Of a DNA stretch of 64,000 bases, positions 18,627 through 42,150 are shown in pieces. The translations under genes and the position numbers were made by a program. This DNA is from an uncultured Kordiimonas sp. (GTDB lineage: Bacteria; Pseudomonadota; Alphaproteobacteria; Sphingomonadales; Kordiimonadaceae). Location: contig CANMRM010000007.1 in NCBI GenBank assembly GCA_947500295.1, forward strand, positions 62,001 to 126,000, written 5' to 3'. The notes under the pieces are model-generated. The model saw only the letters and a list, made by a program, of their open reading frames with translations. It had not been told where the DNA came from and did not search any database. The stretch's first letter is position 1; each line of letters starts with the position of its first letter.

Positions 18627-18631
18627 CAGCT

Positions 18632-23754: not shown

Positions 23755-23758
23755 GTTT

Positions 23759-23947
23759 TTGGACACCCTATACTTTGCCGGATTTTGCGTCTTGATTTCC
23801 CTGATCATTCTGTGGGGTTACAAGAAAGACGATCATGCTGAGTTTAACGACGGCCTTGGCAATAAGAAGTTTTCACCGAAGAAGCCGGACGCGGAACGTT
23901 CCATCAAAACTGACGAAGAAGACACACCTAGGGCTAATCTTCTGTAA
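23759..23947 (+). CDS. Small single-helix membrane protein, unknown
   Basis: A 62-residue reading frame starts at a TTG right after galE, with AGGAGTAGG as ribosome site. It has one N-terminal transmembrane helix (YFAGFCVLISLIILWGY, about 4-21) and a hydrophilic, Lys/Asp/Glu-rich tail. I do not recognise a family. Its place between galE and the exporter gene suggests a small accessory of the polysaccharide system. Coding reality is supported by the ribosome site and sensible protein composition, but the TTG start and short length keep this uncertain. Confidence 0.5.
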   Translation: MDTLYFAGFCVLISLIILWGYKKDDHAEFNDGLGNKKFSPKKPDAERSIKTDEEDTPRANLL

Positions 23948-24078
23948 TTGTTGCTGTAATTTACTCAGCAAGTGTGGTTAATACTTGATTTACTCCATAA
24001 AAAATGGCCAAATAGCCCCCTGTATTGCTGCTTTTATGTAGGCGCGTGGGGGCCGCGGCTTTAAATGAGTGTTTTTTT

Positions 24079-24714: not shown

Positions 24715-24761
24715 GCGGCAGAATTGTCGAGGCCCAGATAGGCCGACAGCGGAGAAGGTAA

Positions 24762-26384: not shown

Positions 26385-26424
26385 TCTCGGCGGATAGTTC
26401 CGCTCTTGATGAGTTTTGATTCGC

Positions 26425-27531
26425 ATGGACCTGATTGAACGCGCGGCAAAAAATGCCAAGAAGAAAGAGGAAAAAGGCAGTTCCCTGGTGGAACGAGCCG
26501 CCAAGACTGTTGGCGACAGCCCTTTTGAGCGTCCTGCATCAGGCGGTATTGGTTCGCCCGGCAAAAAGAAACCGGACCCTTCTTCGCTTAACCCGACTTT
26601 GGCGGAGGAGCCAGCAACACCCGCCTTCAAGGGTATCGGCGCGCCAGGAGCCCCCAGGCAAAAGCCGAAAGCTGCCAATGAGGATACAGCACCTGATGGT
26701 ATCCAGCCGGTTCCTGAAAAACCGCGTTCTCTTGCAATAGGTGATACGGCAGGCGAGGGACCGAAACAGGCATCCAGTCGGCCCCGCAAGCGCCGTGAAG
26801 CAGAAGAAATAGACCTGGTCGCACTGAGAGAGGCTGGTTACATCACACCGGATATGCCGCCCAACCTAATGTCGGAAGAGTTCCGTATCATCAAGCGATC
26901 GTTGTTGCTTAACGCCTTTCCCAAAGGAGAGGGCTCGAAAGATAGGAATGACAACGTTATTCTTGTTACGAGCTCCAATCCAAGTGAGGGCAAGACTTTT
27001 TGTACGATTAATTTGGCACTTTCCATAGCTACCGAGCAGGACGTGACTGTTTTGCTGGTTGATGCCGATTTCTCCAAACCTGAAATTTTGAACCGGCTTG
27101 GCGTAAAAGGAGGCAGGGGCCTTATGGACGTGGTGGCTGACGGTAATATGGATGTCGGCGACTGTCTGGTTCGCACCAATATACCCAATCTTGTACTCTT
27201 GCCTGCAGGCCGACAGCACAACCTCACGACTGAATTGCTGGCGAGTGAGCGTATGGCCAACATGGTTACGGAGATTTCCAGTCGCTATAAAGACAGGATT
27301 GTAATCTTTGATTCACCGCCCGTTCTCGCAAGCTCTGCCGCGTCGGTGTTGGCGCTGTATATGGGGCAAACTGTTTTTGTCATCGAAGCTGAAAAAACAA
27401 CTGAACCGCAAATTAAAGAAAGCCTCGGCATGATAAGCGCGTGTGAAAACATAAATTTGCTTCTAAACAAAACGCGCTATAACGGTAGCAACAAAAAGTT
27501 TGCAACTTACTACGGCTACGGCGGTCGATAG
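26425..27531 (+). CDS. XrtA-associated tyrosine autokinase (BY-kinase)
   Basis: A cytoplasmic bacterial tyrosine kinase that works with the chain-length protein. It has 368 residues from the ATG at 26425, giving the family-like start MDLIERAAK; a TTG at 26416 is an alternative. An N-terminal disordered, Pro/Lys-rich stretch (about 10-140) precedes the P-loop domain. The Walker A variant is SSNPSEGKT, Walker A' is VLLVDADFSKPEI, and IVIFDSPPVL is Walker B. The end has a tyrosine cluster, FATYYGYGG, the expected autophosphorylation site. This fits TIGR03018. Confidence 0.9.
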   Translation: MDLIERAAKNAKKKEEKGSSLVERAAKTVGDSPFERPASGGIGSPGKKKPDPSSLNPTLAEEPATPAFKGIGAPGAPRQKPKAANEDTAPDGIQPVPEKPRSLAIGDTAGEGPKQASSRPRKRREAEEIDLVALREAGYITPDMPPNLMSEEFRIIKRSLLLNAFPKGEGSKDRNDNVILVTSSNPSEGKTFCTINLALSIATEQDVTVLLVDADFSKPEILNRLGVKGGRGLMDVVADGNMDVGDCLVRTNIPNLVLLPAGRQHNLTTELLASERMANMVTEISSRYKDRIVIFDSPPVLASSAASVLALYMGQTVFVIEAEKTTEPQIKESLGMISACENINLLLNKTRYNGSNKKFATYYGYGGR

Positions 27532-27542
27532 AGGCATCTAGT

Positions 27543-29039
27543 GTGATCCCTCGCCCGTTTCTCAGAGCATCTAATGCTGGTCTGAAGCCCTACATTGCAC
27601 TGGCTGCTGCATGTCCGCTGTTTACTCTCGTCTCTATTGGTGGCGCAAAAGCCCAGCACATATATATCGACCCGCGTGCCGAGCTCAGGTTGACCGGCAC
27701 AGACAATGCAAATTTATCAGAAACCGATAAGGTTTATGATGCTGTGCTGAATAGCGCGGTTGGTATGAATGCACGCATCTCCGGCAATCGACTGCGGTTA
27801 GCGCTCGATTACTCGCTGGATCACTTTTATTTCCTGTCCGATGGCACAGACGACTTTCGTCAAAATATGTTTGGAACGCTAGACAGCGAAGTATGGGAAG
27901 ATCATCTGACCATAAATGGTCGTGCGAGCCTGCGTCAGCAGTTCCTTGACCAGCGGGGAAGCCTATCAGGAAGCGCTGCCAACCGGACAGCGAACCGCCG
28001 CCTTGTTCAAGAATATACTGGCACGGGTATTTTCAGGACAGGGCTCCGGGACTACGCCGACTTCCGGCTGACATACAGATTTGGACTGCAGAGGAGCCCT
28101 GCCGATAACCTGGAGGACGAAACGCTGCCGGTGAATTTTTCTGATTCAACCAGCCACGAACTCACGGCATCGCTGGACTCGGGGGATCGATTCCGAAATT
28201 TTCAATGGCGTTTGTTTGCTGATTCTTCTGAGGTCATCAGATCTCTGGATGTTAATGATTTTCGTAAGGAACGGGGTGGTGCAGAAATAACTTGGAAAGC
28301 CAATCGCTTTATCCAACTTTTTGGCAATGTGAATGTGACATCCAACGATTTCCAGTCAGCTGAACTTGGCGAAGATGGCTTTGGCTGGGAGGGTGGTTTT
28401 CGATGGACACCAGGCCCTAAACTTGACCTGAGTGTTTCGTATGGACGCGAAGGCGAGCGAGAAATCTGGTATGCATCATTGCAGCACTTCTTTTCAGCCC
28501 GGCTGAATTTTACGGGTAGTTATACCGATAGAATTACTGCTAATACTATAGTATCTAACGATAATTTAAATAACCTGTCGTTCAATGACCAGTTCGGGAT
28601 TGTTAACACCGAAAGCCTGCCGATCGACGAAACAGACCCGAACTTCTCCTTTTCTGATGTTGATTTCCGGCAACGCTCCGCCGTTGGCACACTCACTCTC
28701 CAGCAAAAAAGAACCAAGACCTTTATCAACGGTAGCTATGAGAAACGAACCTTTGACGATAGTTCTGGATCAGCGCGTGCCTGGGGTGTTTCTTTGGGCA
28801 CAGATCATGAAATTAATGAAGATACGTCACTAAATGCTCGACTTAGCTTTCGTCAAAGTTTATTTGAAGATGGGGTGCGAGTAGATGATTTCATCGTAGG
28901 TAATTTGACTTGGACAAGAACGGTATCAAGATATTTGAGTGTAGCGATTTCGTATGATCACTCGCAGCGGCTTTCAAATGCCGACGGCCAGGACCTGGAA
29001 GAAAATGCACTTACGTTCTACCTAAGAGGGACATTCTAG
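27543..29039 (+). CDS. XrtA-system outer-membrane beta-barrel protein (TIGR03016-like)
   Basis: The 498-residue product starts at a GTG and has a signal peptide (about 15-38, ending GGAKAQ). The rest shows alternating hydrophobic/polar strands rich in aromatic residues, such as LRLALDYSLDHFYFLSD and LDLSVSYGREGEREIWYASL. It ends with phenylalanine (ALTFYLRGTF), as outer-membrane barrels do. By place and pattern it is the conserved barrel of exosortase loci. It may aid export or anchor the glycan; no mechanism is known. It lies between kinase and ATPase genes with gaps of 11 and 7 bases. Confidence 0.83.
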   Translation: MIPRPFLRASNAGLKPYIALAAACPLFTLVSIGGAKAQHIYIDPRAELRLTGTDNANLSETDKVYDAVLNSAVGMNARISGNRLRLALDYSLDHFYFLSDGTDDFRQNMFGTLDSEVWEDHLTINGRASLRQQFLDQRGSLSGSAANRTANRRLVQEYTGTGIFRTGLRDYADFRLTYRFGLQRSPADNLEDETLPVNFSDSTSHELTASLDSGDRFRNFQWRLFADSSEVIRSLDVNDFRKERGGAEITWKANRFIQLFGNVNVTSNDFQSAELGEDGFGWEGGFRWTPGPKLDLSVSYGREGEREIWYASLQHFFSARLNFTGSYTDRITANTIVSNDNLNNLSFNDQFGIVNTESLPIDETDPNFSFSDVDFRQRSAVGTLTLQQKRTKTFINGSYEKRTFDDSSGSARAWGVSLGTDHEINEDTSLNARLSFRQSLFEDGVRVDDFIVGNLTWTRTVSRYLSVAISYDHSQRLSNADGQDLEENALTFYLRGTF

Positions 29040-29046
29040 CTCTAGT

Positions 29047-30084
29047 ATGTATGAAAGTTTTTACAATCTTCAGGGTCGCCCATTCCAGCTAACGCCGGAT
29101 CCACGCTTTTATTTTAGCTCGCGGACACACAAAAAAGCGATGGCATATCTCACCTATGGTCTGAACCAGGGTGAAGGCTTTATTATTGTGACGGGTGATA
29201 TTGGCACGGGGAAAACTACCCTGGTGCGACACCTGTTCGACACACTCGACCGCAATGAATTTATCGCAGCCATGATCGTCAGCACGCAATTGAGTGCGGA
29301 AGACCTCCTCAGAAGTGTGGTTGCCGCTTTCGGTCTGGATGCACAGGCAGAGGATAAAGGGCAACTTCTTGCTCGGCTCGAAAAGCACCTGCGAGAACAG
29401 TTTGCGCGCGGCCGGCGTGCCCTTTTGGTTGTTGATGAGGCCCAGAACCTTTCCAATGCTGCGCTTGAGGAAATGAGAATGCTCTCAAATTTCCAGGACG
29501 GCGACAAAGCATTGGTGCAAAGCTTCTTGGTGGGACAGCCCGAATTTCGGGAGCGTATCTTTGCTGCACCCGAACTGGAGCAGCTGCGCCAGCGGGTGAT
29601 CGCCACCCATCATCTGGAGCCGATGGAAAAAGAAGAACTCGCCGATTATATCCAACACCGCCTCAGTCTCGTGGGCTGGGACAATGATCCTTGCTTTACC
29701 GCTGACGCGGTCGAGGCCATCTACAATCATTCGGCAGGGGTTCCCAGGCGTCTGAACACACTCTGCTCGAGAGTTCTGCTGTATGGTTCACTGGAAGAAC
29801 TCCATACCATTGATGGCGACACGATTGACGCTGTTGTTGCGGACATGACCAGTGACACCAGGCCGGTTACGGCAGTGTCTTCTGCCGTGGCGATGCCACC
29901 CCCCAGCTCCCAGAACGATTCTACAGTGCCTCTTGAAGCAAAGCCTGCAGGTAAAGAGAGCAAAGAGATGGATAACCGCATCAGTCAGCTTGAGGACATG
30001 ATGAAGTCACAGGACCAGACGCTGCAACAATTGACCCAATTGATGACGCAGCTCGCAAGCGGCGGCAAAAAGGACGACGAATAA
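29047..30084 (+). CDS. XrtA-associated AAA ATPase (TIGR03015-like)
   Basis: This 345-residue protein has the ExeA/GspA-type start MYESFYNLQGRPFQLTPDPR. The Walker A motif is GDIGTGKTT (about 50-58), Walker B is ALLVVDEAQNLS, and an arginine-rich sensor region reads LEQLRQRVIATHHLEPME. A winged or helical lid with GVPRRLNTLCSRVLL follows. The last 80 residues are low-complexity plus a short coiled coil (ISQLEDMMKSQDQTLQQLTQ). Such ATPases recur in PEP-CTERM loci and may open the cell wall or regulate synthesis; the role is not proven. Confidence 0.9.
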   Translation: MYESFYNLQGRPFQLTPDPRFYFSSRTHKKAMAYLTYGLNQGEGFIIVTGDIGTGKTTLVRHLFDTLDRNEFIAAMIVSTQLSAEDLLRSVVAAFGLDAQAEDKGQLLARLEKHLREQFARGRRALLVVDEAQNLSNAALEEMRMLSNFQDGDKALVQSFLVGQPEFRERIFAAPELEQLRQRVIATHHLEPMEKEELADYIQHRLSLVGWDNDPCFTADAVEAIYNHSAGVPRRLNTLCSRVLLYGSLEELHTIDGDTIDAVVADMTSDTRPVTAVSSAVAMPPPSSQNDSTVPLEAKPAGKESKEMDNRISQLEDMMKSQDQTLQQLTQLMTQLASGGKKDDE

Positions 30085-30087
30085 CTC

Positions 30088-31005
30088 ATGTCGGCAATCG
30101 CCCCTGCTAGTTTACGGCTGGTGCCTCGCAGGACTACCGTTGAGGGCGGAACAACTTCGAACATATTTTCTGTTGACGTTGAGGAATGGTTTCAGGTTGG
30201 GGCCTTCGAAAATACATTGGGCCGGGACCAATGGCATAGCCTGGAAAGTCGTGTCGAACAACAGACAGAATTTGTCCTGGAACTGTTGGCACAGGCCCAG
30301 GTGTTGGGCACCTTCTTCTGTTTGGGGTGGGTGGCAGAGCGTTTCCCCAAACTGATATCGATGATCGCGACAGCTGGACACGAGGTGGGGTGTCATGGGA
30401 TGGATCATCGCCGCATATTCACCATGTCTCCGGCAGAGTTTTTCGATGACGTGACACGCGCAAAGAGCTTGCTCGAAGAAGCGGGCGGCAAACCCGTCAG
30501 GGGATACCGGGCCCCAAGTTTCTCCATGACAGCGGAGTGTTGGGAGTTTTACGAGAAACTTGAAGAAGCCGGATTTTCCTACTCGTCCAGCATCGTTCCC
30601 GCAAAGACAGATCACTATGGTGCTGTGGGTTTGCCAAGGACACCCTTTTTCCCACTGAAAAACTGTAGTGTGATAGAAATACCCATGACGGTTGCAACTT
30701 TTGGACAGACTGCTTTTCCGGCATCAGGTGGCGGTTATTTCAGGCTGCTGCCCATGTTCCTATCTACCTGGTTGATGAACAGGGCTCGTCGTCAGACCGG
30801 GATCGGTACCGTTTTTTACATGCACCCATGGGAGACAGACCCTGACCAACCATTTATAAGCAACGCACCGCTGCGTTCACGACTGCGTCACTATACAGGC
30901 TTGGCAGCCATGTCGGGTAAAGTGAAAAATCTGCTGGCCTCGTCCACTTTCGGTCGGGTTGACACGGTTGTAGCTCAATCATTCGAGTGGGATGCAGACC
31001 AGTGA
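30088..31005 (+). CDS. XrtA-system polysaccharide deacetylase (DUF3473 type)
   Basis: A carbohydrate esterase family 4 enzyme expected to deacetylate N-acetyl sugars of the exopolysaccharide. The 305 residues have the NodB fold: FSVDVEEWFQ gives the catalytic and metal Asp/Glu region, GHEVGCHGMDHR the metal-binding His pair, and GYRAPSFSM the third motif. The tail FYMHPWETDPDQP is the DUF3473 extension that marks the exosortase-linked subgroup (TIGR03006). The absence of a signal peptide is usual for it. Its stop overlaps the most likely GTG start of the next gene. Confidence 0.9.
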   Translation: MSAIAPASLRLVPRRTTVEGGTTSNIFSVDVEEWFQVGAFENTLGRDQWHSLESRVEQQTEFVLELLAQAQVLGTFFCLGWVAERFPKLISMIATAGHEVGCHGMDHRRIFTMSPAEFFDDVTRAKSLLEEAGGKPVRGYRAPSFSMTAECWEFYEKLEEAGFSYSSSIVPAKTDHYGAVGLPRTPFFPLKNCSVIEIPMTVATFGQTAFPASGGGYFRLLPMFLSTWLMNRARRQTGIGTVFYMHPWETDPDQPFISNAPLRSRLRHYTGLAAMSGKVKNLLASSTFGRVDTVVAQSFEWDADQ

Positions 31006-32042
31006 CAACGGACATTAAGCTTCTCGATAGCACTGCTTTTGAGGCTTGGGATGAGTTTGTCAATAAGGCTCCGGATGCTACTTTCTGCCATCTTTCAGGA
31101 TGGAAGACTGTTATTGAACAGGGAGCAGGGCAGAGTTGCCCCTATGTTGCTGCATTTCAGGATGGCGTTGTGGTCGGGGTTTTGCCGCTTTCCATTAAGA
31201 AGCATTTTCTGTTTGGCAAGGCGCTGATTTCAAACATGTTTTGTGTCTACGGTGGCGCAATCGCCGTCGATGCGGGTGTGAAGGATGGCCTTTACAGATT
31301 TGCTTGGCAACTGGCCGAAAAACACGGCTTACCCGTTTTTGAAAACCGTTCCAGAACCAGGGACAATGAGTTGTGTAAAGGGTGGATTGCGGAGCCATCT
31401 TCAGCAACGTTTGTCAAAGAGCTTGCTAACGATGACGATCAACAGCTGCTTGCTATTCCCCGCAAACAACGGGCTGTCATTCGTAAAAGCTTCAAAAATG
31501 GTCTTGAGACCGATTGGGAAGGGGACATCAATACATTTTACGACCTCTATGCCAAAAGTGTTTTAGCCCTTGGTACACCGGTATTCCCAAAAAAAATGTT
31601 TGCGGCGTTCATTGATGTTTTCGGTAATGACGTTGAAATCCAACTTACCAGATCAGCTGACGGTGTTCCGGTTGCAAGCCTTATGAGTTTCTATTTCCGC
31701 GACACGGTGATGCCTTACTACGCCGGCGGATCGGGCGCCGTACGCTCGTTGGGCGCTCACGATCATATGTATTTCCACCTTATGTGTGCTGCCAGGCGTC
31801 GTGGAATTCGCTACTTCGATTTTGGCAGGAGCAAAATTGACAGCGGCCCCTACAAGTTCAAGAAAAACTGGGGTTTTGAACCAAAAGACCTTGGATACGA
31901 AATGCGCCTCGCCGAAGGGGCTGATCTGCCCAATGTGTCGCAGCAGTCTGGGCCATTCGCAGTCATGAGCAGGGCATGGAAGCACTTGCCACTGAGTGTT
32001 TCAAAAATCCTGGGCCCATCAATATCACGTCACTTAGGTTAG
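31002..32042 (+). CDS. FemAB-family protein of the XrtA system
   Basis: A GNAT-fold transferase of the FemAB/peptidyl-transferase type (TIGR03019-like), 346 residues from the GTG at 31002. This start overlaps the deacetylase stop (GTGA); a GTG at 30987 is the alternative. Motifs include FCHLSGWKTVIEQ at the N terminus, KQRAVIRKSFKNGL in the middle and GIRYFDFGRSKIDSGPYKFK near the end, the last being typical of the family. In exosortase loci it may attach an amino acid or acyl group to the polysaccharide or its lipid carrier; the substrate is unknown. Confidence 0.88.
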   Translation: MTTDIKLLDSTAFEAWDEFVNKAPDATFCHLSGWKTVIEQGAGQSCPYVAAFQDGVVVGVLPLSIKKHFLFGKALISNMFCVYGGAIAVDAGVKDGLYRFAWQLAEKHGLPVFENRSRTRDNELCKGWIAEPSSATFVKELANDDDQQLLAIPRKQRAVIRKSFKNGLETDWEGDINTFYDLYAKSVLALGTPVFPKKMFAAFIDVFGNDVEIQLTRSADGVPVASLMSFYFRDTVMPYYAGGSGAVRSLGAHDHMYFHLMCAARRRGIRYFDFGRSKIDSGPYKFKKNWGFEPKDLGYEMRLAEGADLPNVSQQSGPFAVMSRAWKHLPLSVSKILGPSISRHLG

Positions 32043-32047
32043 CTAAG

Positions 32048-33280
32048 ATGGCGCGTATCCTTTTTTTGTCACACCGCATTCCCTATCCGCCGAACAAGGG
32101 AGACAAAATTCGCTCATGGCACTTTCTGGAGCACTTGTGCAAAAACCACGAAGTTCATGCTGGTTTTTTTATCGATGACAAGGATGACTTTGAGCATCTG
32201 GAGTTTCTAGAAAGTAAATGTGAAACGGTACTTTATGCGTTTGCCACTCCATCCGCACAGAAATTGGCTTCCCTGCGTGGACTGATAACCGGCGGTTCTC
32301 TGACCGAAAACGCCTATCCATCGCCAAATTTTCGACGCCAGCTGAGGTCCCTGTTGGAGAAACATGCTTTTGACCTCATATTTTTGTACTCGGCTGCAAC
32401 CTACTCTTTCCTGCCTGACGACATAGAAAAAATTCCCATCATCACAGATTTTGTGGATGTGGATTCCGAAAAATGGCGTGCCTATGGCGATAATTCAAAA
32501 TGGCCGATGTCCTGGGTGTTTGCGAGGGAAGCTGAAACACTGTCTCGGTTCGAGGCTAAAGTGGCGAACAAGAGTGCTTGCTCAATTCTTGTGAGTGACG
32601 ATGAGGCCCGATTGATGCGCGGGAGGCTCCAGGAACGCAATATTGAAGCGTTTGTTCAAGGTATCCCAAACGGCGTTGATATAAGCGCGTTTGCACCGGA
32701 AAACTATGATACCCCCGCTGCTGGTCATCGTATTATCTTTACCGGTGCCATGGACTACGCTCCCAACGTAGAAGCAGTTGTCTGGTTTGCTGAAAATGTA
32801 TTCGAGAAGTTGAAACAGGAAATTGCAGGCATTGAATTTTTAATTGCCGGCCGCCCGGTGGCATCGGCTGTTCAAAGACTTGGCAGGCGAGATGGAATTG
32901 TCGTGCTTGGTGCCGTGGATGACATGGCGGCAGAAATCGCAAAGGCGGACATTGTGATTGCGCCGCTTCAAACAGCGCGAGGTATCCAAAACAAAGTTCT
33001 TGAGGGCATGGCCATGGCTAAACCGGTGGTTTGTACGCGCGCAGCAAATGAAGGCATTAATGCCGAGCACGGTATCACCGCCCTATTGTCAGAAACCCCG
33101 GACGAGTTTGTCCAAGCAATCCGTTCTTTGCTGGACTCTGCACCTATGCGGCAGTCCATTGGCGGTGCAGCACGTAATTTCGTCGACCAGAAGTTTTCTT
33201 GGAAGGCAGCTTTTTCTAGCATAGATACTGTCGTCGGCCAGGTGGCAGGTAGCCCAAAAGAGCGTCAGGTGAAGCTATGA
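32048..33280 (+). CDS. Glycosyltransferase of the XrtA system (TIGR03087-like)
   Basis: The protein has 410 residues from the ATG at 32048, which gives the canonical family start MARILFLSHRIPYPPNKGDK; an upstream ATG at 31976 lies inside the FemAB gene. It is a GT-B enzyme: DFVDVDSEKW in the N-terminal half and IIFTGAMDYAPNVEAVVWF, IEFLIAGRPV and IVIAPLQTARGIQNKVLEGM in the nucleotide-sugar domain. It is one of only two ordinary glycosyltransferases in this locus, so the repeat unit is short or is completed by enzymes elsewhere. Its end overlaps xrtA (ATGA). Confidence 0.9.
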   Translation: MARILFLSHRIPYPPNKGDKIRSWHFLEHLCKNHEVHAGFFIDDKDDFEHLEFLESKCETVLYAFATPSAQKLASLRGLITGGSLTENAYPSPNFRRQLRSLLEKHAFDLIFLYSAATYSFLPDDIEKIPIITDFVDVDSEKWRAYGDNSKWPMSWVFAREAETLSRFEAKVANKSACSILVSDDEARLMRGRLQERNIEAFVQGIPNGVDISAFAPENYDTPAAGHRIIFTGAMDYAPNVEAVVWFAENVFEKLKQEIAGIEFLIAGRPVASAVQRLGRRDGIVVLGAVDDMAAEIAKADIVIAPLQTARGIQNKVLEGMAMAKPVVCTRAANEGINAEHGITALLSETPDEFVQAIRSLLDSAPMRQSIGGAARNFVDQKFSWKAAFSSIDTVVGQVAGSPKERQVKL

Positions 33281-34815
33281 CAACACTTTGGCGCAAGCAT
33301 GCTGTTCTCCTGATTTTAGGACTGCTGGTTCTCGCTAGTGCGTGGTTTGAAGCTCTTTCGCACATGGCAAAAATCCTCTGGAATGTAGATGTTTTCGCAC
33401 ATGGTCTGCTTGCGCCCATAGTGTGTGTCGGTTTGATATGGACCAGGCGTGAGCTTCTTCTGAAGATGAAACCCACGTTCTCGGTGCTGGGCCTGGTGGG
33501 CCTGCTCGCTTCCTGCCTGCTGTGGTTGGCAGCTGGCGTTCTTGATGTGGCGCTTTTTGCTCACGTTGCGCTTGTTTCGGCTATTCAGGCCCTGGTATTG
33601 GCTGTCTTCGGTTGGCACATCTATCGTGCGAACATCTTTCCGATGCTGTTTCTCTATTTTTCGGTCCCCTTCGGCTACGAATTGGTGGGGCCGCTTCAGC
33701 GCATGACCGCGGGAATGGTCATATGGGTGTTGGATCTGATAAATGCGGACTTTTCTGCGGAGGGCATGTTAATCACATTGCCCAGTGGCCTTTATGAAGT
33801 TGCTGAAGCATGTGCGGGTGTGAAGTTCTTCTTCACAAGTATTTTCACCGGCGTTTTGCTTTCTCACCTTGTGTTCCGTAGCTGGCGCCGCCGCGCGGCA
33901 ATTATCGCCTTCAGTGTCGTTTTGCCCATAATAGCCAATGCTTTGCGAGTTTTGCTGATCTTCCTGATTGCAGAGTTATCTGACCAGCGGCTGGCAAAGG
34001 GTTTTGACCATTTGGTTTATGGTTGGGTATTTTTGTCGGTGGTGTTGCTCCTGCTGGTGACAACAGCATACAAGTACTCAGACAAGCCACTCACAGACAG
34101 TGCGATGTCGAATGACATAACACCCGGGCCTGTAGCGCAACAGCGCAATGGATGGATGTTGTTAATGCTTATTGGGGTTTTGCTGCCCTGGGCCACGACA
34201 TGGATTTTACCCCCAGGCCAGATGGGCGAGACAACACTGAGAACGACCATCTCCCAACCTATTGTAGTGGATGACACCGCAGGGTTTCGGGCTTTGGCTG
34301 ATACAGGCTATGTCGCTCGTCCGGAGTTTCTTCTGGCGGATGAGAGCCGAGCTTCACTCCTGAGGAAAAACGGCTCAGTCTTTCATGCCTACATCGCCGA
34401 CATTGAGGTGTTGTCTTCGGCCCAACGGCTTTTCCACCCAAGCAATACTCTGGTTGATCACACATGGCGCCAGATTGAGTTTTCGAGCTCAGTTCGCCAG
34501 CTCGGTGTATGCCAGCTTGCCATATCCGAGCATATCTTTCGCCGGGGAGAGGAGAGAACAATTGTGTGGGCAGGATATACGGTTGATGGTGTGGCGGTTA
34601 AAAATGACATCGAGGAAAAAATTGAAACCGCTTTGCAACTATTGAAAGGCAAACAGGCTTCGGGAACAGCATGGGTAATGAGTGCACCACTGGTGGGAGA
34701 ACCAGACCTTATCCGGGAAATATTTTTGGAATTCCTATCGACATTTCCTGCCGATAGCTATTTAAGAGATGCGGGGGGCGCATTGAAAAGGGGCAACAGT
34801 ATATGTGCGGAATAA
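33277..34815 (+). CDS. xrtA: Exosortase A fused to an EpsI (DUF3485) domain
   Basis: Exosortase A is the membrane cysteine transpeptidase that cuts PEP-CTERM proteins at the PEP motif. The N-terminal half (1-275) has about eight transmembrane helices. It carries the predicted catalytic set: C179 in EACAGVKFF, R224 in NALRVLLIF and H245 in FDHLVYGW. The C-terminal half (about 285-512) begins with another helix and is an EpsI-type periplasmic domain, as is usual for XrtA. At least one substrate is encoded here (13583-15979). It overlaps its neighbours on both sides. Confidence 0.94.
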   Translation: MTTLWRKHAVLLILGLLVLASAWFEALSHMAKILWNVDVFAHGLLAPIVCVGLIWTRRELLLKMKPTFSVLGLVGLLASCLLWLAAGVLDVALFAHVALVSAIQALVLAVFGWHIYRANIFPMLFLYFSVPFGYELVGPLQRMTAGMVIWVLDLINADFSAEGMLITLPSGLYEVAEACAGVKFFFTSIFTGVLLSHLVFRSWRRRAAIIAFSVVLPIIANALRVLLIFLIAELSDQRLAKGFDHLVYGWVFLSVVLLLLVTTAYKYSDKPLTDSAMSNDITPGPVAQQRNGWMLLMLIGVLLPWATTWILPPGQMGETTLRTTISQPIVVDDTAGFRALADTGYVARPEFLLADESRASLLRKNGSVFHAYIADIEVLSSAQRLFHPSNTLVDHTWRQIEFSSSVRQLGVCQLAISEHIFRRGEERTIVWAGYTVDGVAVKNDIEEKIETALQLLKGKQASGTAWVMSAPLVGEPDLIREIFLEFLSTFPADSYLRDAGGALKRGNSICAE

Positions 34816-36701
34816 CCGGCGGTATGACGCACAATGGTGCTCCGGTTGAAGAAAGCCTCCTTCGGCAGATGACCGACCTGATTAACCATCGAGGGCCAGA
34901 CGGCGATGGTTATTTCTGGGGTGGTGATGTTGCCCTCGGACACAAACGGCTCTCTATTATCGACATCGCCGGCGGTCAACAGCCGATGTACAGTCAGGGC
35001 AAAGAGTTTGTTCTTTCCTACAACGGCGAAATATACAATTTTCAATATCTGCGACGGGAGCTGGAAGGGCTGGGCCACAAGTTTGCCACCCAGTCCGATA
35101 CCGAAGTCTTGATGGCGAGCTATGTAGAATGGGGGGAAGCATGTGTTGAGCGCTTGCGTGGCATGTTTGCCTTCGCCATTTGGGACGGTCCCAAACGCAA
35201 ACTTTTTCTAGCAAGAGACCGGCTGGGTATCAAACCACTGTACTATGTGTTCCTGCCCAATGGTGACCTCTATTTTGCTTCAGAAATGAAGTCCTTGCTC
35301 GCTATCCCGGGGTTGCCGCGGAAGCTTAAAATTGATGCTCTCGAAGACTATCTGACTCTAGGGTACGTTCCCGACCCTAAAACGATTATCGAAGGTGTGA
35401 TGAAGCTGCCGCCAGCGACCACGCTGTCTTTGGAGAAGGGAGCTAGTCGGCCCCGGATGACGTGCTACTGGCAACCGGGAATAGGGGTGGCCGGGCTTAC
35501 GGTGTCACGCAGCGAAGACTTGCTCGCCCGTCTGGAAGACGCCGTTAAGATGCGCATGATAGCGGACGTGCCACTGGGCGCGTTTTTGTCTGGCGGTGTG
35601 GACTCGAGTGCTGTTGTCGGCCTCATGTCGCGCCTCAATTCAGAACCTATTGAAACATGTGCAATCGGGTCGGAAGACCCGCTATATGACGAAAGCGGTT
35701 ATGCCCAGATCGTAGCGGACCACTTTGAAACGAGTCATCGCTGGCGTCTTGTTTCGGCCACAGACCGCTCGCTGATTGATCGCATAGCAGATGTGTATGA
35801 CGAACCATTCGCGGATCCGTCGGCGCTGCCAACTTATCGGGTATGCGGTCTGGCGAGAGAGAAAGTAAAAGTAGCCTTGTCAGGAGATGGGGGAGACGAA
35901 CTCTTTGCCGGGTATCGTCGACACAGATTCCATATGGCTGAGGAAGCGCTTCGAAGCTCTCTTCCGATGCTTGTAAGACGGGCAGTGTTTGGCCCGTTGA
36001 GCGCAATTTACCCCAAACTCGACAGAGCCCCACAATTTCTTCGGGCAAAATCAACATTTGAAGCATTGGCAAAAACATCGGCTCAAGCCTATTGCCAAAG
36101 CGTCAGCCGAACACCGGACAGGGAGAGGAAACGCTGGCACTCACGCCGGATGAAGAAAATCCTCGCGGGCTACCATCCGCATGATCGCTTTACTGAACTT
36201 GCCAATGAAGTTAAAGGCGCTGACCCGTTGTCGGTTATTCAGTACATAGATTTGAAAACTTACCTTTGCGGCGACATCCTGACCAAAGTGGACAGGGCCA
36301 GCATGGCTCACAGTCTGGAAGTGCGCGTTCCCATTCTTGACCACAAGTTTGTCGAGTGGGGTCTGCGGGTTCCAGCGCGGGAGCGTATTGTTGAAGGCGA
36401 GGGCAAGGCTGTATTCCGAAACGCATTGCGCGGGTTTTTGCCGGATGAAACGCTGGATCGGGCTAAAAAAGGTTTCGATGTTCCAACCGTTAACTGGCTG
36501 CGCAACGAACTGGCCGATGACACCATGTCATTGGGAGAAAGTGACATTTTTGCAGACAGCGGTTTGTTTAATATGTTGGGTATTCAGCAAATGGCGGAAG
36601 AGCATGTGATTGGTGCACGCGACCACCACACAAGTTTGTGGGCATTAATAATGCTCGAGCGTTCGCTGAAAAAGCTCAATCTTGAAATGCCTACGGCATA
36701 G
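34803..36701 (+). CDS. XrtA-system amidotransferase (asparagine synthase-like, TIGR03108)
   Basis: A class II glutamine amidotransferase of 632 residues. The start MCGITGG exposes the nucleophile Cys2. The glutaminase domain shows NHRGPDGDGYF, GHKRLSIID and SYNGEIYN, and the synthase domain has the ATP-binding SGGVDSSAV motif (about 261-269) and LSGDGGDELFAGYRRH. It resembles AsnB, but in exosortase loci this subgroup (XrtA amidotransferase 1) is thought to amidate a sugar acid of the exopolysaccharide. It starts 13 bases inside xrtA and ends four bases from the convergent phoB gene. Confidence 0.9.
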   Translation: MCGITGGMTHNGAPVEESLLRQMTDLINHRGPDGDGYFWGGDVALGHKRLSIIDIAGGQQPMYSQGKEFVLSYNGEIYNFQYLRRELEGLGHKFATQSDTEVLMASYVEWGEACVERLRGMFAFAIWDGPKRKLFLARDRLGIKPLYYVFLPNGDLYFASEMKSLLAIPGLPRKLKIDALEDYLTLGYVPDPKTIIEGVMKLPPATTLSLEKGASRPRMTCYWQPGIGVAGLTVSRSEDLLARLEDAVKMRMIADVPLGAFLSGGVDSSAVVGLMSRLNSEPIETCAIGSEDPLYDESGYAQIVADHFETSHRWRLVSATDRSLIDRIADVYDEPFADPSALPTYRVCGLAREKVKVALSGDGGDELFAGYRRHRFHMAEEALRSSLPMLVRRAVFGPLSAIYPKLDRAPQFLRAKSTFEALAKTSAQAYCQSVSRTPDRERKRWHSRRMKKILAGYHPHDRFTELANEVKGADPLSVIQYIDLKTYLCGDILTKVDRASMAHSLEVRVPILDHKFVEWGLRVPARERIVEGEGKAVFRNALRGFLPDETLDRAKKGFDVPTVNWLRNELADDTMSLGESDIFADSGLFNMLGIQQMAEEHVIGARDHHTSLWALIMLERSLKKLNLEMPTA

Positions 36702-36705
36702 AGTG

Positions 36706-37410
36706 TTATTTGGTGTTGTCCAGGGCGTAGCCGGCTGAACGGACGGTTCTTATATAGTCTTTACCGCCTGCATTCATTGCTTTGCGAAGTCTTCTGATAT
36801 GCACATCAACTGTGCGCGGCTCGACGTAGACATCGTGGCCCCAAACCGAATCCAGAAGTTGCTCACGAGAAAACACCCGTCCGGGGTTTTCCATAAAGTG
36901 TCGCAAGAGGCGATATTCGGTGGGACCCAAATGTATGGAAACACCGCTGCGAGTAACGCGGTGAGAGACGTTGTCCAGACAAATATCTTCGAACGTCAGT
37001 TCTTTGCCCGCCAGTGCGGGGCGAACCCGGCGCAGCACTGCCTGTATGCGGGCAATGAGTTCTTTGGGAGAAAATGGCTTTACGACATAGTCATCGGCTC
37101 CAGTTTCAAGGCCTCGAACCCGATCAGGCTCATCTGCTCGTGCAGTCAGCATGATAATGGGCACATTTGCGGTCTCACTGTTGCGGCGCAGTTGCCGGCA
37201 AATTTCCAGGCCCGATAAGTTGGGTAACATCCAGTCCAGCAAGATAACGTCGGGTGTGTCTTGCGCCGCGAGGTACAGACCATCTTCCCCATCAGCAACC
37301 GCATCGACCTTATAGTCCGCGCGTTCCAGATTATACCGCACCAACTCTGTAATATTCAGGTCGTCTTCGATCAGTAGAACTCTGGTTTTCACAGGAGTGT
37401 TTCCTCTCAT
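36706..37410 (-). CDS. phoB: Phosphate response regulator PhoB
   Basis: An OmpR/PhoB-type response regulator, 234 residues from the ATG at 37410; a GTG at 37392 would give the more usual start VKTRVLLIEDD. The receiver domain has the acidic pair E15/D16 and the phosphorylated D59 in VILLDWMLP, with T in MLTAR and K in VVKPFSP. The winged-helix domain has GPTEYRLLRHFMENPGRVFS and EPRTVDVHIRRLRKAM, strongly PhoB-like. It activates phosphate-starvation genes. It lies downstream of phoR with a 185-base gap that contains a possible Pho box. No pst genes are here. Confidence 0.9.
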   Translation of the reverse strand: MRGNTPVKTRVLLIEDDLNITELVRYNLERADYKVDAVADGEDGLYLAAQDTPDVILLDWMLPNLSGLEICRQLRRNSETANVPIIMLTARADEPDRVRGLETGADDYVVKPFSPKELIARIQAVLRRVRPALAGKELTFEDICLDNVSHRVTRSGVSIHLGPTEYRLLRHFMENPGRVFSREQLLDSVWGHDVYVEPRTVDVHIRRLRKAMNAGGKDYIRTVRSAGYALDNTK

Positions 37411-37545
37411 CAACTGCAGCCGGTTTTCTCAGTTACACCGTCGTTGTCGCTTGGAATTACTGGTAATTGCCAGAAGCGATTTGATGTTTTGATCGGCCTA
37501 CTGATACTGATGCTATGTTACAGTTTAATGGCGCGAAGAGCGAGC

Positions 37546-37566
37546 AAATGTCGCTTTTATGACATG
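37546..37566 (-). promoter_or_regulatory. Possible Pho box before phoB
   Basis: Read on the minus strand the sequence is ATGTCATAAAAGCGACATTT. The known box is two CTGTCAT-like repeats spaced 11 bases apart. The first repeat here (TGTCAT) is complete; the second (CGACAT) has two differences. It lies about 140 bases before the phoB start and would allow separate, self-activated transcription of phoB. Confidence 0.45.
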
Positions 37567-37595
37567 GTACAAGGCGGTTACCTGATGGTTTAAGG

Positions 37596-38873
37596 TCAGG
37601 CGCGGTGCAGCTTGAAACTGAAAGTCGAGCCTTCTCCCACGACGCTTTTGACATCCAGCACGCTGCCATGGCGAATCAAAATGTGTTTTACAATTGCCAG
37701 GCCCAAGCCGGTACCACCCATTTTTCGCGAGCGGGCATCATCCACCCGGTAGAACCTCTCGGTTAGGCGGGCCAGATGCTCTTTGGAAATGCCGGGGCCT
37801 TCATCGCGGATGGCCAGGGATATGTATTTCTTGTCTTTTGCCACCTTTGCTGAAACATGAACAGTGGAATCCCGGTCGGCATATTTTGCGGCATTAACTG
37901 CGAGGTTTAGCAGTACCTGCATCAGTTGATCCGGGTCCGCAATAACACGTGAAGCACTGGCATCGACATCGATTTTAAAGTCAACACCCCGTTCCTTGCC
38001 TGCAGCCGCTGCTGTTAAGACAACGCTGTTGATCATCGCTTCCACGTTGACCTCAGTATCGGGAGCCTCATGTCGGGACATCTCGATCTTTGACAAGGAC
38101 AGCAAGTCATCGATGAGGCGAACCATGCGTTCTGCCTCAGACTGCATTATTCCCAGAAATCTATCATGCGCCGGCAGGTCATCTTTCGCAGGGCCCTGCA
38201 AAGTTTCAATAAAGCCGATGAGGGAAGAAAGCGGAGTTCTGAGCTCATGACTGGCATTGGCAACAAAATCTACGCGCATCTGCTCGGTTTGCAGCATGCT
38301 GGTTATCTCGTAGAAAAAAGCCATCGCTTGCGTTGGCACGTCGTCGCCACCAGTTCCAGACACTCTGGAAATGGTCACGTCAAAACTGCGTTTTTGCTTG
38401 TTGGTATAGCGAACAACGCCGGCGTGCTTTTTGCCATCATCAAATATTTTTTCGATGGCATTCACAATTTTGGACTGGCGTAAATAGATATAGACGTCAT
38501 TTCCGACGATATCAGAGCCGAGGAGGTCAAGCGCCGCATGGTTGGCAAATGAAATCCGGTGATCTTCTCCAATGATTAAAATTGGCAAAGGAACGGCATT
38601 CAATGTGTTTGCCCGCACAGATTTTATGCCACCGCGCTTGTTAAACTCGAGTTTTCGTGTTTCAGCAATTCGAGTGCGCAGAGCTGTGCGATGCCTCTTG
38701 AACTCAAGTCGTACCAATAGGCCCGCTATTGTCAAAAATATGAGCAGGGCAGCAATGGTGTCGACCAATTCCACCGACCAGAAAAAAGCGAGCAGGGCAA
38801 GTAAGGCAATAATAATGGTGCGTTCGCTCAATAGGGCCTGAAGGCCGGATGATTCGCGATTTCTGGGTTTCAT
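37596..38873 (-). CDS. phoR: Phosphate-regulon sensor histidine kinase PhoR
   Basis: The 425 residues contain two transmembrane helices close together (about 19-54) with almost no periplasmic loop, as is typical of PhoR. A PAS domain follows (about 90-190, LPILIIGEDHRISFANHAAL). The HisKA domain has the phosphorylated H209 in FVANASHELRTPLSSL. The ATP-binding domain has the N box LLNLAVNAAKYA, G1 DEGPGISKEH and G2 GGTGLGLAIV. It phosphorylates PhoB when phosphate is low, normally under control of PstSCAB-PhoU, which is not in this window. Confidence 0.91.
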   Translation of the reverse strand: MKPRNRESSGLQALLSERTIIIALLALLAFFWSVELVDTIAALLIFLTIAGLLVRLEFKRHRTALRTRIAETRKLEFNKRGGIKSVRANTLNAVPLPILIIGEDHRISFANHAALDLLGSDIVGNDVYIYLRQSKIVNAIEKIFDDGKKHAGVVRYTNKQKRSFDVTISRVSGTGGDDVPTQAMAFFYEITSMLQTEQMRVDFVANASHELRTPLSSLIGFIETLQGPAKDDLPAHDRFLGIMQSEAERMVRLIDDLLSLSKIEMSRHEAPDTEVNVEAMINSVVLTAAAAGKERGVDFKIDVDASASRVIADPDQLMQVLLNLAVNAAKYADRDSTVHVSAKVAKDKKYISLAIRDEGPGISKEHLARLTERFYRVDDARSRKMGGTGLGLAIVKHILIRHGSVLDVKSVVGEGSTFSFKLHRA

Positions 38874-39100
38874 GGTTTTAGCCGCACGCCTGAAAATTGT
38901 AATTTGTAAGACTTATATATTTTGCCGCGAGTAGAAAACAGCAAAGTTACATTTGAATGACCGACCGAAATTCCGGTTTATTGATATTTCATTAGGAAAA
39001 ATATAGCATTGTACATTATAAAACGACGATCTGGTTGGGGCTTGGCTCGGAAACGGGCGCCAGTGGACATCTTGTTATCTCGATTGAGTGTGGAAAAATC

Positions 39101-39841
39101 GTGACTGAATGGCCAGAGAATTCTGAAAATAGTCCGGAAGAGCAAAAACGACTGTCTGACCGGCGTCATCTACTGAAGCTTGGTGTGGCAGGGTTGCCGA
39201 TGGTGTTGACGCTTAGGGCGTCGGCACAGCAAACTCTGGTGTCACAGTTGCAGTGTGTCTTTCAACTTCCCAGGCGTGTTCGCATACTTGTTGACTGCGA
39301 TGGTAGTGCCTGGGTGGGGCGCCCCAGAGTGAGATACAGAAGCGGCAAAGGCTGGAAAGTCGAAGACCTGGTCAACTTCAAGAGCAATGCCGAGTATGTG
39401 TTTCCCTCTGGCACAGTGCCCAGTGGGTATCGCCCCACGGCTTGCCCGGAAGAGATTTGCGATGCGGACGATGATGACGATAACGGTAACAGCTACAATC
39501 ATAATTCTGTTTCCGAGTTGGATGCGCTGTTAAACAACCCAATGCCTTCGAACGCTTCGGAAATTGCTGCTTTCTCCGCAAACTCCGGCCGCAGCGATGA
39601 CGACGATGACGATTGTGACCCCGAATGGCAGGACAATGGCTACGCTCTGTATACAATTTCCAAAAATACCGAGATCATGCCAAGCGACCATTTAGGAAAC
39701 GGCGGATGGAGCCCCAGCGGCGATGCTGAAGGCCTATATATTGTTCTTTCGCTCACCTATGCGAATTCGTACGGCAATCAGGGTGGTTGGCCAGGCATTT
39801 CCTGCGTCGCTTCAATCCTCACCTATCTTGGACAACTCTAG
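39101..39841 (+). CDS. Acidic secreted protein with twin-arginine-like signal, unknown
   Basis: The product has 246 residues from a GTG; the frame stays open upstream to a TTG at 39035. Near residues 20-43 it has RRHLLKLGVAGLPMVLTLRA followed by SAQQ, a twin-arginine-like signal peptide with a likely cut after ASA. The mature part contains six Cys and two aspartate-rich runs (ICDADDDDDNGNS and RSDDDDDDCDPE), which look suited to binding calcium or other cations. No family is recognised. It is followed by three genes of the HPr-rel-A type, so it is a candidate substrate or partner of that cassette. The start is uncertain. Confidence 0.7.
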   Translation: MTEWPENSENSPEEQKRLSDRRHLLKLGVAGLPMVLTLRASAQQTLVSQLQCVFQLPRRVRILVDCDGSAWVGRPRVRYRSGKGWKVEDLVNFKSNAEYVFPSGTVPSGYRPTACPEEICDADDDDDNGNSYNHNSVSELDALLNNPMPSNASEIAAFSANSGRSDDDDDDCDPEWQDNGYALYTISKNTEIMPSDHLGNGGWSPSGDAEGLYIVLSLTYANSYGNQGGWPGISCVASILTYLGQL

Positions 39842-39877
39842 CGGTCGCGTTACCATTGTCGACTTGAGGAGTTTTTG

Positions 39878-40183
39878 ATGGCCGCAGGTCCTGTTGATGA
39901 TGCGTTGTTGTGGAAGTCCAGCGCTGACGACTGGGTAGCCGAAGAGTTTGACGACACGTTTTTGGTGTTTTTTCGTCCTTCGGCTGAAACGCATTTCCTG
40001 AATTTTTTGTCGTTTGGTGCACTGCGCCAGTGTGCCCGTGAGCCCCAGAACATGAATAGCCTGACGCTCAACCTGAGACAGGAATTTGACATCGAAGACG
40101 CTGAACTTCCGCTTTCGCTAGTGAAGAGTGTGGTTGAGCAGCTGGACGATACAGGCCTGATTAAGCCGGTGACATCAAAGTGA
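39878..40183 (+). CDS. PqqD-like peptide chaperone of the HPr-rel-A system
   Basis: This 101-residue protein starts at an ATG seven bases after GAGGAG. The pattern (LLWKSSADDWVAEEFDDTFLVF early, then a helical part ending ELPLSLVKSVVEQLDDTGLI) fits a PqqD-like winged-helix RRE fold. Such proteins bind the leader of ribosomal peptides and deliver them to modifying enzymes. From memory, NCBI names a family for PqqD-related proteins next to HprK-related kinases (HPr-rel-A system). The stop overlaps the kinase start (GTGA), implying tight coupling. Confidence 0.78.
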   Translation: MAAGPVDDALLWKSSADDWVAEEFDDTFLVFFRPSAETHFLNFLSFGALRQCAREPQNMNSLTLNLRQEFDIEDAELPLSLVKSVVEQLDDTGLIKPVTSK

Positions 40184-41094
40184 GCGCACCGCTTCAACAA
40201 TTTGATAGCAAAGACCTGAAACAGGCGCTTAAGGCTGGCACATTTACGATGTCGCTGGGTCCGTTTGCACACCTGGTTTCAGGAAGCAGTGATGCGCTCC
40301 TGGATTTTCTCGAGGATACCTACCGTGACTACAACGTCGATTTGCAGCCGAGAGACGTTACAGAGATTGTATTGAGTTTAAAGGCTCCCAATTTTGTGCG
40401 CCGGTTTGTCCGGCGTCAAATAACGCCGGATCCAGGCTTTGACGTTCCTGCGGTTCCGCTGCCGCTGAGAATGGCGCCCTTGGCGTTCGAGATGGGTTTA
40501 AACCTCTCTGTTGCTCTTAAATGCTGTCGGTTAATGACCATTCATGCCGGTGTGGTCGCTGATGAAAAAGGCGCCATAGTTATGAGTGCGGCCTCAGGTG
40601 GGGGGAAAAGTACGCTCACGGCGGCATTGATGGCGGAAGGGTATCGGCTTTTCTCCGACGAATTTGCGCTGGTTGATCTGGAAAATGCATCGCTGCACCC
40701 TTATCCCCGCCCCATTTCACTGAAGCAGCAGTCTATCCCAGTGGTTCGCGACATCGTTGGCTCAGATCAAATTAGCGACCTGATTACGGGCACACCTAAA
40801 GGTGACATCGCCTATTGCCGCGTGAAAAAAAGTGACCTGTCTGCCGACAACCAAACATCGCACGCGAAGCTGATATTGTTTCCAAGATTTGAAGAGGGTG
40901 TCAGCCCTGTTGCCCGCATGTTAAATCCCGCTGAAGCAATTATGCGGCTCATCCCAGCCTCCACAAATTACAATTTGCTGGGCGAACCCGCGTTTAATGC
41001 GGTGGTAAAACTGGCACGTAACGCTCGTGCTTACGAAATTTCCTATGGGTCAACAGCGCAGAGCTTGCGGTTGATTTCAGAGCTTGGGGGGTAA
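40180..41094 (+). CDS. HprK-related kinase A (HPr-rel-A system)
   Basis: The 304-residue protein resembles the C-terminal kinase domain of HPr kinase/phosphorylase. The P-loop is SGGGKST at 139-145, preceded by IHAGVVADEKGAIVMSAA, and RLFSDEFALVDLE supplies the acidic metal-binding segment. The N-terminal third is not HprK-like. True HprK phosphorylates HPr of the sugar transport system; this subgroup instead occurs with PqqD-like and nucleotidyltransferase genes. Related kinases in lasso peptide clusters phosphorylate the peptide. The target here is unknown. It starts with a GTG overlapping the previous stop. Confidence 0.83.
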   Translation: MSAPLQQFDSKDLKQALKAGTFTMSLGPFAHLVSGSSDALLDFLEDTYRDYNVDLQPRDVTEIVLSLKAPNFVRRFVRRQITPDPGFDVPAVPLPLRMAPLAFEMGLNLSVALKCCRLMTIHAGVVADEKGAIVMSAASGGGKSTLTAALMAEGYRLFSDEFALVDLENASLHPYPRPISLKQQSIPVVRDIVGSDQISDLITGTPKGDIAYCRVKKSDLSADNQTSHAKLILFPRFEEGVSPVARMLNPAEAIMRLIPASTNYNLLGEPAFNAVVKLARNARAYEISYGSTAQSLRLISELGG

Positions 41095-41103
41095 TAGGGC
41101 GGT

Positions 41104-42150
41104 ATGGACCTCCAGGTACTAAAAATCATAGTAGGAGATAAACCCCTACCAGAAGGTTTTCTGAGGCAAACAGAAGTCATCAAGTTCGCGGATACCAATC
41201 ATGTGTTAGGGCAAATGGCGCATCAATATCGGCGCGAAAAGTCACCAGGTCTCGCAGATGCCTTCAAAAATGCAAAACTTCGCTCGAGGCATGACCACAT
41301 CATGCTGCATTTTGAAATGGAACGCGTGGCACGGGCACTAACGAATAGCGGCATCAAAGCGGTGGTGCTGAAAGGTGGCGCTTATGTTGCCAGAGGTTTG
41401 ACGGCATCCAGGGGGCGGAGGGTTAGCGATCTGGATATTTTGGTCGCGTCCGACCAACTTGACGTAACGGAGAAGTTACTTGAGGCCGCAGGGTGGGCGA
41501 CGGATGAACAGACAGACAATCCGTACGACCAGCAGTATTACCGTGAACACATGCATGAACTACCGCCTCTCCGACACAAAACCAGGGGAACGATCGTTGA
41601 CGTACACCATTCACTGTTGCCGAAAACAGCTCGACACCAGGTGAATGTTTCCGAGATGATGTCTTGTGCTGAGCATCTGGACGAGGAAGGTCTCTGGAGT
41701 TTTCAGATGATGGACATATTTATCCATTCTGCAGTACACGCATTTGTAGATGGCCAGCTGGATGTCCCTGTCCGGACACTTGTTGAACTTAACTTGCTTT
41801 TTGCCGACCTCAGCGACACCGACAGGGACGGGATTGTCGATCGGGCTAAAGCGCTTGGTGCAACAAAAGCTGTTGGCCTCGCTTTATGGTCCATTGGTCG
41901 CCTTTTTGCTCATAATCAGGCCAGAGAATCCTCGATACGGCTTGTGCCCGCACATAGACACCTGCCTCTGAAATATGCGCTGTTGTCGAAGGCTGCTGAC
42001 AATGCATTTTCTCCCATGGCCAAGGCATTTTTATATGTTCGTGGGCACTTTCTTCGGATGCCGTTTTATCTTCTGGTGCCGCATCTCGTTCGCAAAGCCG
42101 TGCGATGGCGACCCGGTCAAAACCTCCCTCATGAGCTTCCAACACCATAA
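41104..42150 (+). CDS. Nucleotidyltransferase family protein (NTP_transf_5-like)
   Basis: This 348-residue protein has the minimal nucleotidyltransferase pattern. KAVVLKGGAYVARGL holds the GG/S motif (about 85-98). About 15 residues later RRVSDLDILV gives the two catalytic Asp of the DxD pattern, and TIVDVHHSLLP has the third acidic position. Helical domains follow. Families like this (PF14907 from memory) are found beside HprK-related kinases and in some RiPP clusters. It may add a nucleotide to a peptide, protein or small molecule. The GGGCGG ribosome site and nine-base gap to the kinase gene mark it as the last gene of this cassette. Confidence 0.8.
   Translation: MDLQVLKIIVGDKPLPEGFLRQTEVIKFADTNHVLGQMAHQYRREKSPGLADAFKNAKLRSRHDHIMLHFEMERVARALTNSGIKAVVLKGGAYVARGLTASRGRRVSDLDILVASDQLDVTEKLLEAAGWATDEQTDNPYDQQYYREHMHELPPLRHKTRGTIVDVHHSLLPKTARHQVNVSEMMSCAEHLDEEGLWSFQMMDIFIHSAVHAFVDGQLDVPVRTLVELNLLFADLSDTDRDGIVDRAKALGATKAVGLALWSIGRLFAHNQARESSIRLVPAHRHLPLKYALLSKAADNAFSPMAKAFLYVRGHFLRMPFYLLVPHLVRKAVRWRPGQNLPHELPTP

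Follow-up and report, generated by a model that had tools for sequence, protein, structure and literature searches.

We analysed a 64,000-nucleotide stretch of DNA from an uncultured Kordiimonas sp. (GenBank assembly GCA_947500295.1, contig CANMRM010000007.1, positions 62,001 to 126,000), referred to here as the window. Four open reading frames (ORFs) on one strand, from 39101 to 42150, form a cassette whose kinase and adapter genes belong to the HPr-rel-A type. An original prediction, made from the window's sequence alone, had placed the four ORFs at these positions and proposed that the cassette modifies a peptide or protein, the product of the first gene being a candidate substrate. Re-reading of the window's ORFs bore out this gene layout:

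39101..39841, + strand: candidate substrate protein, hereafter the client; 246 aa, GTG start, without a family by scan
39878..40183, + strand: PqqD-like adapter, a recognition element (RRE) for ribosomally synthesized and post-translationally modified peptides (RiPPs); HPr-rel-A type, TIGR04353, ATG at 39878
40180..41094, + strand: HprK-related kinase A, TIGR04352, GTG start
41104..42150, + strand: nucleotidyltransferase-fold protein, PF14907 (NTP_transf_5)

The last three genes are as tightly spaced as predicted, with the PqqD stop and the kinase start sharing four bases (40180-40183) and a gap of nine bases between the kinase and nucleotidyltransferase genes. The GTG start of the client at 39101 is supported by a relative (locus L103) that has an ATG at the equivalent point.

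The family identities given for the three downstream proteins held, as all three scored above curated cut-offs. The PqqD-like protein is assigned to PqqD_rel_X (TIGR04353; 40.2 bits, cut-off 35), a model matched at E ≤0.01 by all 26 aligned PqqD-like relatives, the kinase to HprK_rel_A (TIGR04352; 237.2 bits, cut-off 200), and the nucleotidyltransferase-like protein to PF14907 (141.8 bits, cut-off 31.2). Against solved structures, the PqqD profile had a sole match, TfuB1 (6jx3_B; E 0.008), which we take to be the RRE of a lasso pathway, and the kinase profile matched HPr kinase structures (best E 7e-4). Across 23 aligned rows, the P-loop and D160-E161 of the kinase are invariant, as are D109, D111 and D166 of the nucleotidyltransferase-like protein. 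The sequence profile of the latter found no convincing relative among solved structures; its predicted model (predicted local distance difference test score, pLDDT, 91.6) was closest to MenT1 (E 5e-4) and ANT(2'')-Ia (E 0.016), both nucleotidyltransferases. In one genome, the kinase and the nucleotidyltransferase-like protein are fused as one protein.

The original prediction had also called the system undescribed, which holds for the client, newly assigned here, but not for the enzyme families, since a similar set, that of the linear polyphosphorylated peptides (LPP), has been published and PqqD_rel_X and HprK_rel_A carry the NCBI label “HPr-rel-A system.” The kinase and PqqD-like protein of the window are both members over the curated cut-offs. 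Among the matches listed, only TIGR04352 and TIGR04353 bear that name, and none of 67 aligned clients matches such a model; the fourth gene is what is new. A literature text search, with most subscription papers and the text of the NCBI curators outside it, found no paper on the HPr-rel-A system or on its kinase and PqqD models. Among the papers listed by a literature text search, none combined exosortase with PqqD, and the terms kinase, HPr and exosortase were absent by term search from the RRE-Finder paper (PMC7470986) and of a paper on structure-based RRE detection (PMC12710340).

To compare neighborhoods, stretches of ≤18 kb around the kinase were taken from 72 genomes (18 from the genus itself, 17 from the order, 5 from the class and 32 others from the phylum), which together with the window gave 73 loci; 15 of the 72 stretches were <16 kb, and the kinase of one genome (G261, locus L115) is under the family cut-off. 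The original prediction would have been refuted had the upstream protein been missing from most related cassettes; the reverse was found, as an equivalent gene adjoins the cassette in 69 of the 73 genomes and lies elsewhere in three more, which strengthens its standing as the substrate candidate. Of these 69, 66 were identified by a twin-arginine-like pattern before the PqqD or kinase gene, two by reading (L150 and L155), and one (L142) has the client and PqqD genes together on the opposite strand, with the kinase gene inverted relative to them. The same pattern occurred in 41 of 422 other ORFs, versus the 66 of 73 loci. On a 4.5-kb contig (L130), the nucleotidyltransferase gene is followed downstream by a signal match, and in the three loci with no adjacent client (L116, L120 and L156) profile searches located one elsewhere in the genome (G464, G518 and G337). 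Two loci (L095 and L111) carry two tandem clients per cassette, L111 with a PqqD-like ORF between or overlapping them.

Three parts of the client were distinguished on the alignments:

39161..39226, + strand: twin-arginine-like signal, residues 21-42, RRHLLKLGVAGLPMVLTLRASA; proposed as the site held by the adapter
39455..39610, + strand: variable Asp-rich middle, residues 119-170; low model confidence, unconserved
39800..39814, + strand: S-C-V-A-S motif, S234-C235-x-x-S238; proposed modification site

By sequence reading, the N-terminus has an RRxLLK-type motif, a hydrophobic stretch and an AxA-like end. Within the signal, 12 of 22 residues (R21, R22, L24, L25, G28, G31, P33, M34, L36, T37, A40 and A42) are invariant in 19 rows of the genus, and so are S234, C235 and S238 in a C-terminus that reads GISCxxSILxYL-like. 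Mean conservation in three aligned groups was 0.74-0.84 for the signal and 0.67-0.95 for the C-terminal motif, compared with 0.35-0.76 for the mature part. In the set of 67 aligned clients, which leaves out L130, L142, L150 and L155, 55 have [ST]CxxS within the last 45 residues; among background ORFs of ≥200 aa, the motif was present in 3 of 1180 when clients were removed and in 25 of 1210 when they were kept. All 67 have a Cys 18-60 residues past the RR.

The client had been described as a twin-arginine-like, acidic protein with Asp runs. The signal part of that description was upheld (66 of 73 loci), but acidity is not the client's defining trait because Asp runs (D4 or longer) are almost confined to the genus, with 15 of 20 clients of the genus having one, 1 of 47 outside it and none of eight copies unlinked to a cassette. 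The 67 clients share no Pfam or NCBIfam match at E 0.1, weak Tat-signal (twin-arginine translocation) matches aside, and the client of the window has no match to Pfam or NCBIfam other than weak ones of this sort. Two annotated relatives are named hypothetical protein in their records.

We used client profiles to search whole genomes. A profile built from nine sphingomonad clients, searched in 20 genomes, had a match in 11 of 11 kinase-positive and 0 of 9 kinase-negative genomes; nine of the 11 positives had built the profile, leaving G464 and G518 as independent tests. G518 carries its client, together with a PqqD gene, on a contig apart from the kinase (E 3e-7). A second profile, from 18 clients of gammaproteobacterial-type loci, was searched in genomes outside its making, including all 16 of the 61 genomes with an over-cut-off kinase that were not among the fetched stretches. 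It matched 18 of 19 kinase-positive genomes, the miss being a genome 57% complete (G440), and neither of two genomes positive for XrtA and negative for the kinase. Pooling both profiles over genomes outside profile building, the client was found in 20 of 21 kinase-positive and 0 of 10 distinct kinase-negative genomes (nine from the sphingomonad test and two from the other, with G263 in both). Seven of the kinase-negative genomes (six and two, G263 again shared) are XrtA-positive, and none had a client profile match; thus, within the reach of the profiles, the client tracks the kinase, not XrtA. A profile of the genus clients, run against 12 more genomes from the family and order, matched 0 of 6 kinase-negative and 4 of 6 kinase-positive genomes; in each of the four, the only match was to the signal of the client belonging to the cassette. 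On these sequence comparisons, the product of the upstream gene is well supported as a client of the HPr-rel-A cassette.

Clients also occur away from the cassette. In eight of 19 genomes of the genus, a second client that keeps both constant termini lies on a separate contig, and no PqqD, kinase or nucleotidyltransferase gene was found within stretches of ≤10 kb around these eight; the system may therefore act on additional proteins in trans. One of them is in the genome of the window itself (G000, contig 3, 4993-5604 of fetched stretch L163), a stand-alone client with no Asp run and no PqqD, kinase or nucleotidyltransferase match in the 10 kb fetched.

In a kinase tree of 73 rows, [ST]CxxS-type clients fall on both main sides, and nine clients labeled as SPGxW type are confined to one 13-kinase clade. 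Label changes on the tree numbered 5 and 3, versus shuffled means of 16.3 and 8.6, and none of 500 shuffles was as low; seven labels were set by hand, and the counts are descriptive because related genomes are not independent. Described in this way, clients and kinases appear to change together. Clients of this second type, which carry SPGxW or HGYWK-like motifs (L129, L133, L134, L146, L150-L152, L154 and L155), are tied to that one kinase clade. A client on a Vibrio plasmid (L175) has neither these motifs nor [ST]CxxS near its end.

The cassette is also tied to the XrtA/PEP-CTERM system. In 398 genomes of the phylum (two draws taken as one, since the genome handles agree), 61 have a kinase over the cut-off and 63 an XrtA amidotransferase at E ≤1e-230 (62 over the cut-off); 56 have both, versus 9.7 expected (61 x 63 / 398). 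The two genes lie ≤10 kb apart in 24 of these 56 genomes, farther apart on one contig in 17 and on separate contigs in 15. Three of the five kinase-only genomes have weaker amidotransferase relatives, which may be ordinary asparagine synthases because E 1e-50 is likewise reached in 4 of 14 control genomes, and the other two have no match at that threshold. Among the matches listed for 18 sampled genomes of one family, 11 have both, 5 XrtA only, 2 neither and none the kinase only. The HPr-rel-A kinase thus shares its genomes with the XrtA/PEP-CTERM system (PMC1569441), whereas no PEP-CTERM family matched any of the 67 clients. In the passages and term counts available for PMC1569441, no HPr, PqqD or nucleotidyl term appears.

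In the window, the surroundings of the cassette are as follows:

36706..38873, - strand: phoB and phoR-like genes, divergent from the client gene
38946..38963, - strand: weak Pho-box-like site between the phoR-like and client genes; may serve phoR instead
17235..36701, + strand: XrtA/PEP-CTERM exopolysaccharide locus, as context; nine genes and the amidotransferase scanned

The XrtA asparagine-synthase-like gene was said to be 2.4 kb away, and this agrees with the amidotransferase ending at 36701 and the cassette starting at 39101. In the protein scan of the window, this amidotransferase matched TIGR03108 with 837.6 bits (cut-off 816.9), the phoB match was above its cut-off, and the phoR-like protein, with 301.7 bits, was under the PhoR cut-off of 334.2. 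Scored against what we take to be the Pho-box consensus, the intergenic site reached p 0.01 under a first-order Markov null, and 9 of 25 intergenic regions scored reached p ≤0.02, uncorrected. Of 38 alphaproteobacterial loci that have a client, 29 have a phoR gene in divergent orientation to it, and a phoR-like gene was also seen close to the unlinked clients in G464 and G518 as well as to a client on a Sphingomonas plasmid (L171, L172 and L174). Farther off in the window, 7162-9065 holds bufferin-type RiPP genes, with MNIO_BufB at 369.5 bits (cut-off 310), an HvfC-like protein under its cut-off beside it, and just upstream a small ORF that contains Cys and begins like a signal peptide. On the - strand, 13583-15979 encodes a 798-aa protein with long repeats and a PEP-CTERM-like end but no NCBIfam match at 1e-5.

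The cassette was expected not to be a standard lasso cluster, and the scans concur. The family of the lasso B2 leader peptidase, PF13471, was unmatched at E 0.001 throughout the genome, and in a search that covered the surroundings of the cassette no lasso macrolactam synthetase scored over its cut-off. The nearby asparagine-synthase-like protein was considered as a lasso cyclase and rejected, as it scored 260.7 bits, under the cyclase cut-off of 525, while passing the XrtA amidotransferase cut-off. The paeninodin and pseudomycoidin pathways (PadeK, PsmK and PsmN) share the HprK-like kinase, which according to the accessible part of a review acts there on a C-terminal Ser (PMC9266682); they differ in that the client here is protein-sized, PF13471 is missing, and no over-cut-off lasso cyclase is found among the scanned proteins. 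In that account, pseudomycoidin receives a phosphate from PsmK at its C-terminal Ser, and PsmN reportedly extends this phospho-Ser by one or two hexoses, nucleotidylation followed by a host glycosyltransferase being left as an alternative.

The closest described kind is LPP, which the HPr-rel-A cassette, with its newly assigned client, resembles. As set out in the available passages of the 2026 report (PMC13381572), LPP sets (LppA, LppB, LppK and LppN, with LppS and LppD) occur mainly in Bacillota and likewise combine a discrete RRE, an HprK-like kinase and a nucleotidyltransferase without a lasso cyclase; their precursors have a constant N-terminus and a variable rest, and they often lie at capsular polysaccharide loci. 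With its gene set, LppA receives one to four phosphates, and the LppK site is core Ser3, phosphorylation of the S3T and S3Y variants being undetected (same passages). LPP has features of its own, namely an SpI-like leader peptidase, an MsbA-like exporter and a YxxP leader, whereas the HPr-rel-A cassettes are found in Pseudomonadota and have a twin-arginine-like signal and a client of 93-298 aa, with a C-terminus that is constant in most. No SpI-like peptidase or MsbA-like exporter was recognized by eye among the neighboring translations of the window, and no model search for them was made across loci.

From the gene association, the constant termini and the XrtA tie, all drawn from comparison of genomes, we infer that HPr-rel-A is probably an RRE-guided tailoring system for exported proteins. 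The PqqD-like adapter would bind the twin-arginine-like signal of a new client in the cytoplasm, a role suggested because the signal is conserved and because the client and PqqD stay together in G518 and L142 (they are apart in G464). The HprK-related kinase A would then phosphorylate a serine, likeliest that of the C-terminal [ST]-C-x-x-S, and the PF14907 enzyme would put a sugar, a nucleotide or a similar group onto that phosphate; both expectations come from family analogy with PsmK/PsmN and LppK. The finished client would be exported by Tat and may serve with the XrtA/PEP-CTERM exopolysaccharide system, possibly in the matrix. A twin-arginine signal suits modification ahead of export, since Tat transports proteins that are already folded and ATP-dependent reactions take place in the cytoplasm.

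Several observations weigh against this scheme. Twelve of the 67 aligned clients are without [ST]CxxS, 10 of them in the one 13-kinase clade and mostly of the SPGxW type; therefore, these clients have a different target, or else the motif is not what is modified. The signal proline is missing at its position from the nine sphingomonad clients, and Tat models match few clients and weakly (TIGR01409 3/67, TIGR02811 4/67 and PF10518 2/67). The client of G464 lies 163 kb from PqqD and the kinase, and within the fetched stretches 5 of 73 loci are without a nucleotidyltransferase gene and 8 without a recognizable PqqD. Within the 28 residues that start at the RR, the [YW]xxP motif of LPP and lasso leaders occurs in only 1 of 67 clients, and not in that of the window. 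Because the genus profile missed two of six kinase-positive genomes, the absences from kinase-negative genomes could partly be due to divergence.

Three other explanations were weighed against the tailoring of the C-terminal serine. The client may be real and another residue modified, either the conserved Cys or the preceding Ser/Thr, or the C-terminal motif may be a disulfide or anchoring element with the phosphate elsewhere. Cys 235 and Ser 238 are equally constant, and a disulfide pair is plausible because a second Cys follows the signal in all 67 rows; we nevertheless consider this unlikely, as HprK-like peptide kinases with known sites use serine, judging from the accessible parts of the sources on pseudomycoidin (PMC9266682) and LPP Ser3 (PMC13381572). 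It is less probable still that the upstream protein is only a co-regulated partner and that the cassette modifies another XrtA-associated component, for example a polysaccharide carrier or a PEP-CTERM protein. The 56 genomes holding both kinase and XrtA would suit such a role, but the seven unmatched genomes show, within profile reach, that the client goes with the kinase and not with XrtA, and in G518 PqqD stays with the client though the kinase lies elsewhere. The divergent phoR, with phoB alongside in the window, and the match of the kinase profile to HPr kinase structures could also be read as a regulatory device, in which the kinase senses metabolites or phosphate and controls exopolysaccharide, with the exported protein as its output. 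This appears very improbable, as the family of the adapter is a peptide-binding one and no HPr-like gene was seen beside the cassette in the window, none having been searched for across loci.

With RRE-guided tailoring of the client as the preferred reading, a bolder version of it can be put forward with considerable doubt, in which HPr-rel-A would be an export-coupled counterpart, at the scale of proteins, of the RiPP pathways with RRE, kinase and nucleotidyltransferase: a Tat-exported protein would be phosphorylated and sugar-decorated near its C-terminus, and the resulting phosphoglycan tail would prime or anchor XrtA-linked exopolysaccharide on a matrix protein. A named enzyme family for which no target was found in the literature, present in 61 of 398 genomes of the phylum, gains a candidate client and site as well as a physiological setting, and RRE-guided peptide chemistry would be linked to exported proteins of the XrtA exopolysaccharide setting. 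This raises the question of whether sets of RRE, HprK-like kinase and nucleotidyltransferase may lie in or near polysaccharide loci for the same reason in Bacillota, as LPP, and in Pseudomonadota.

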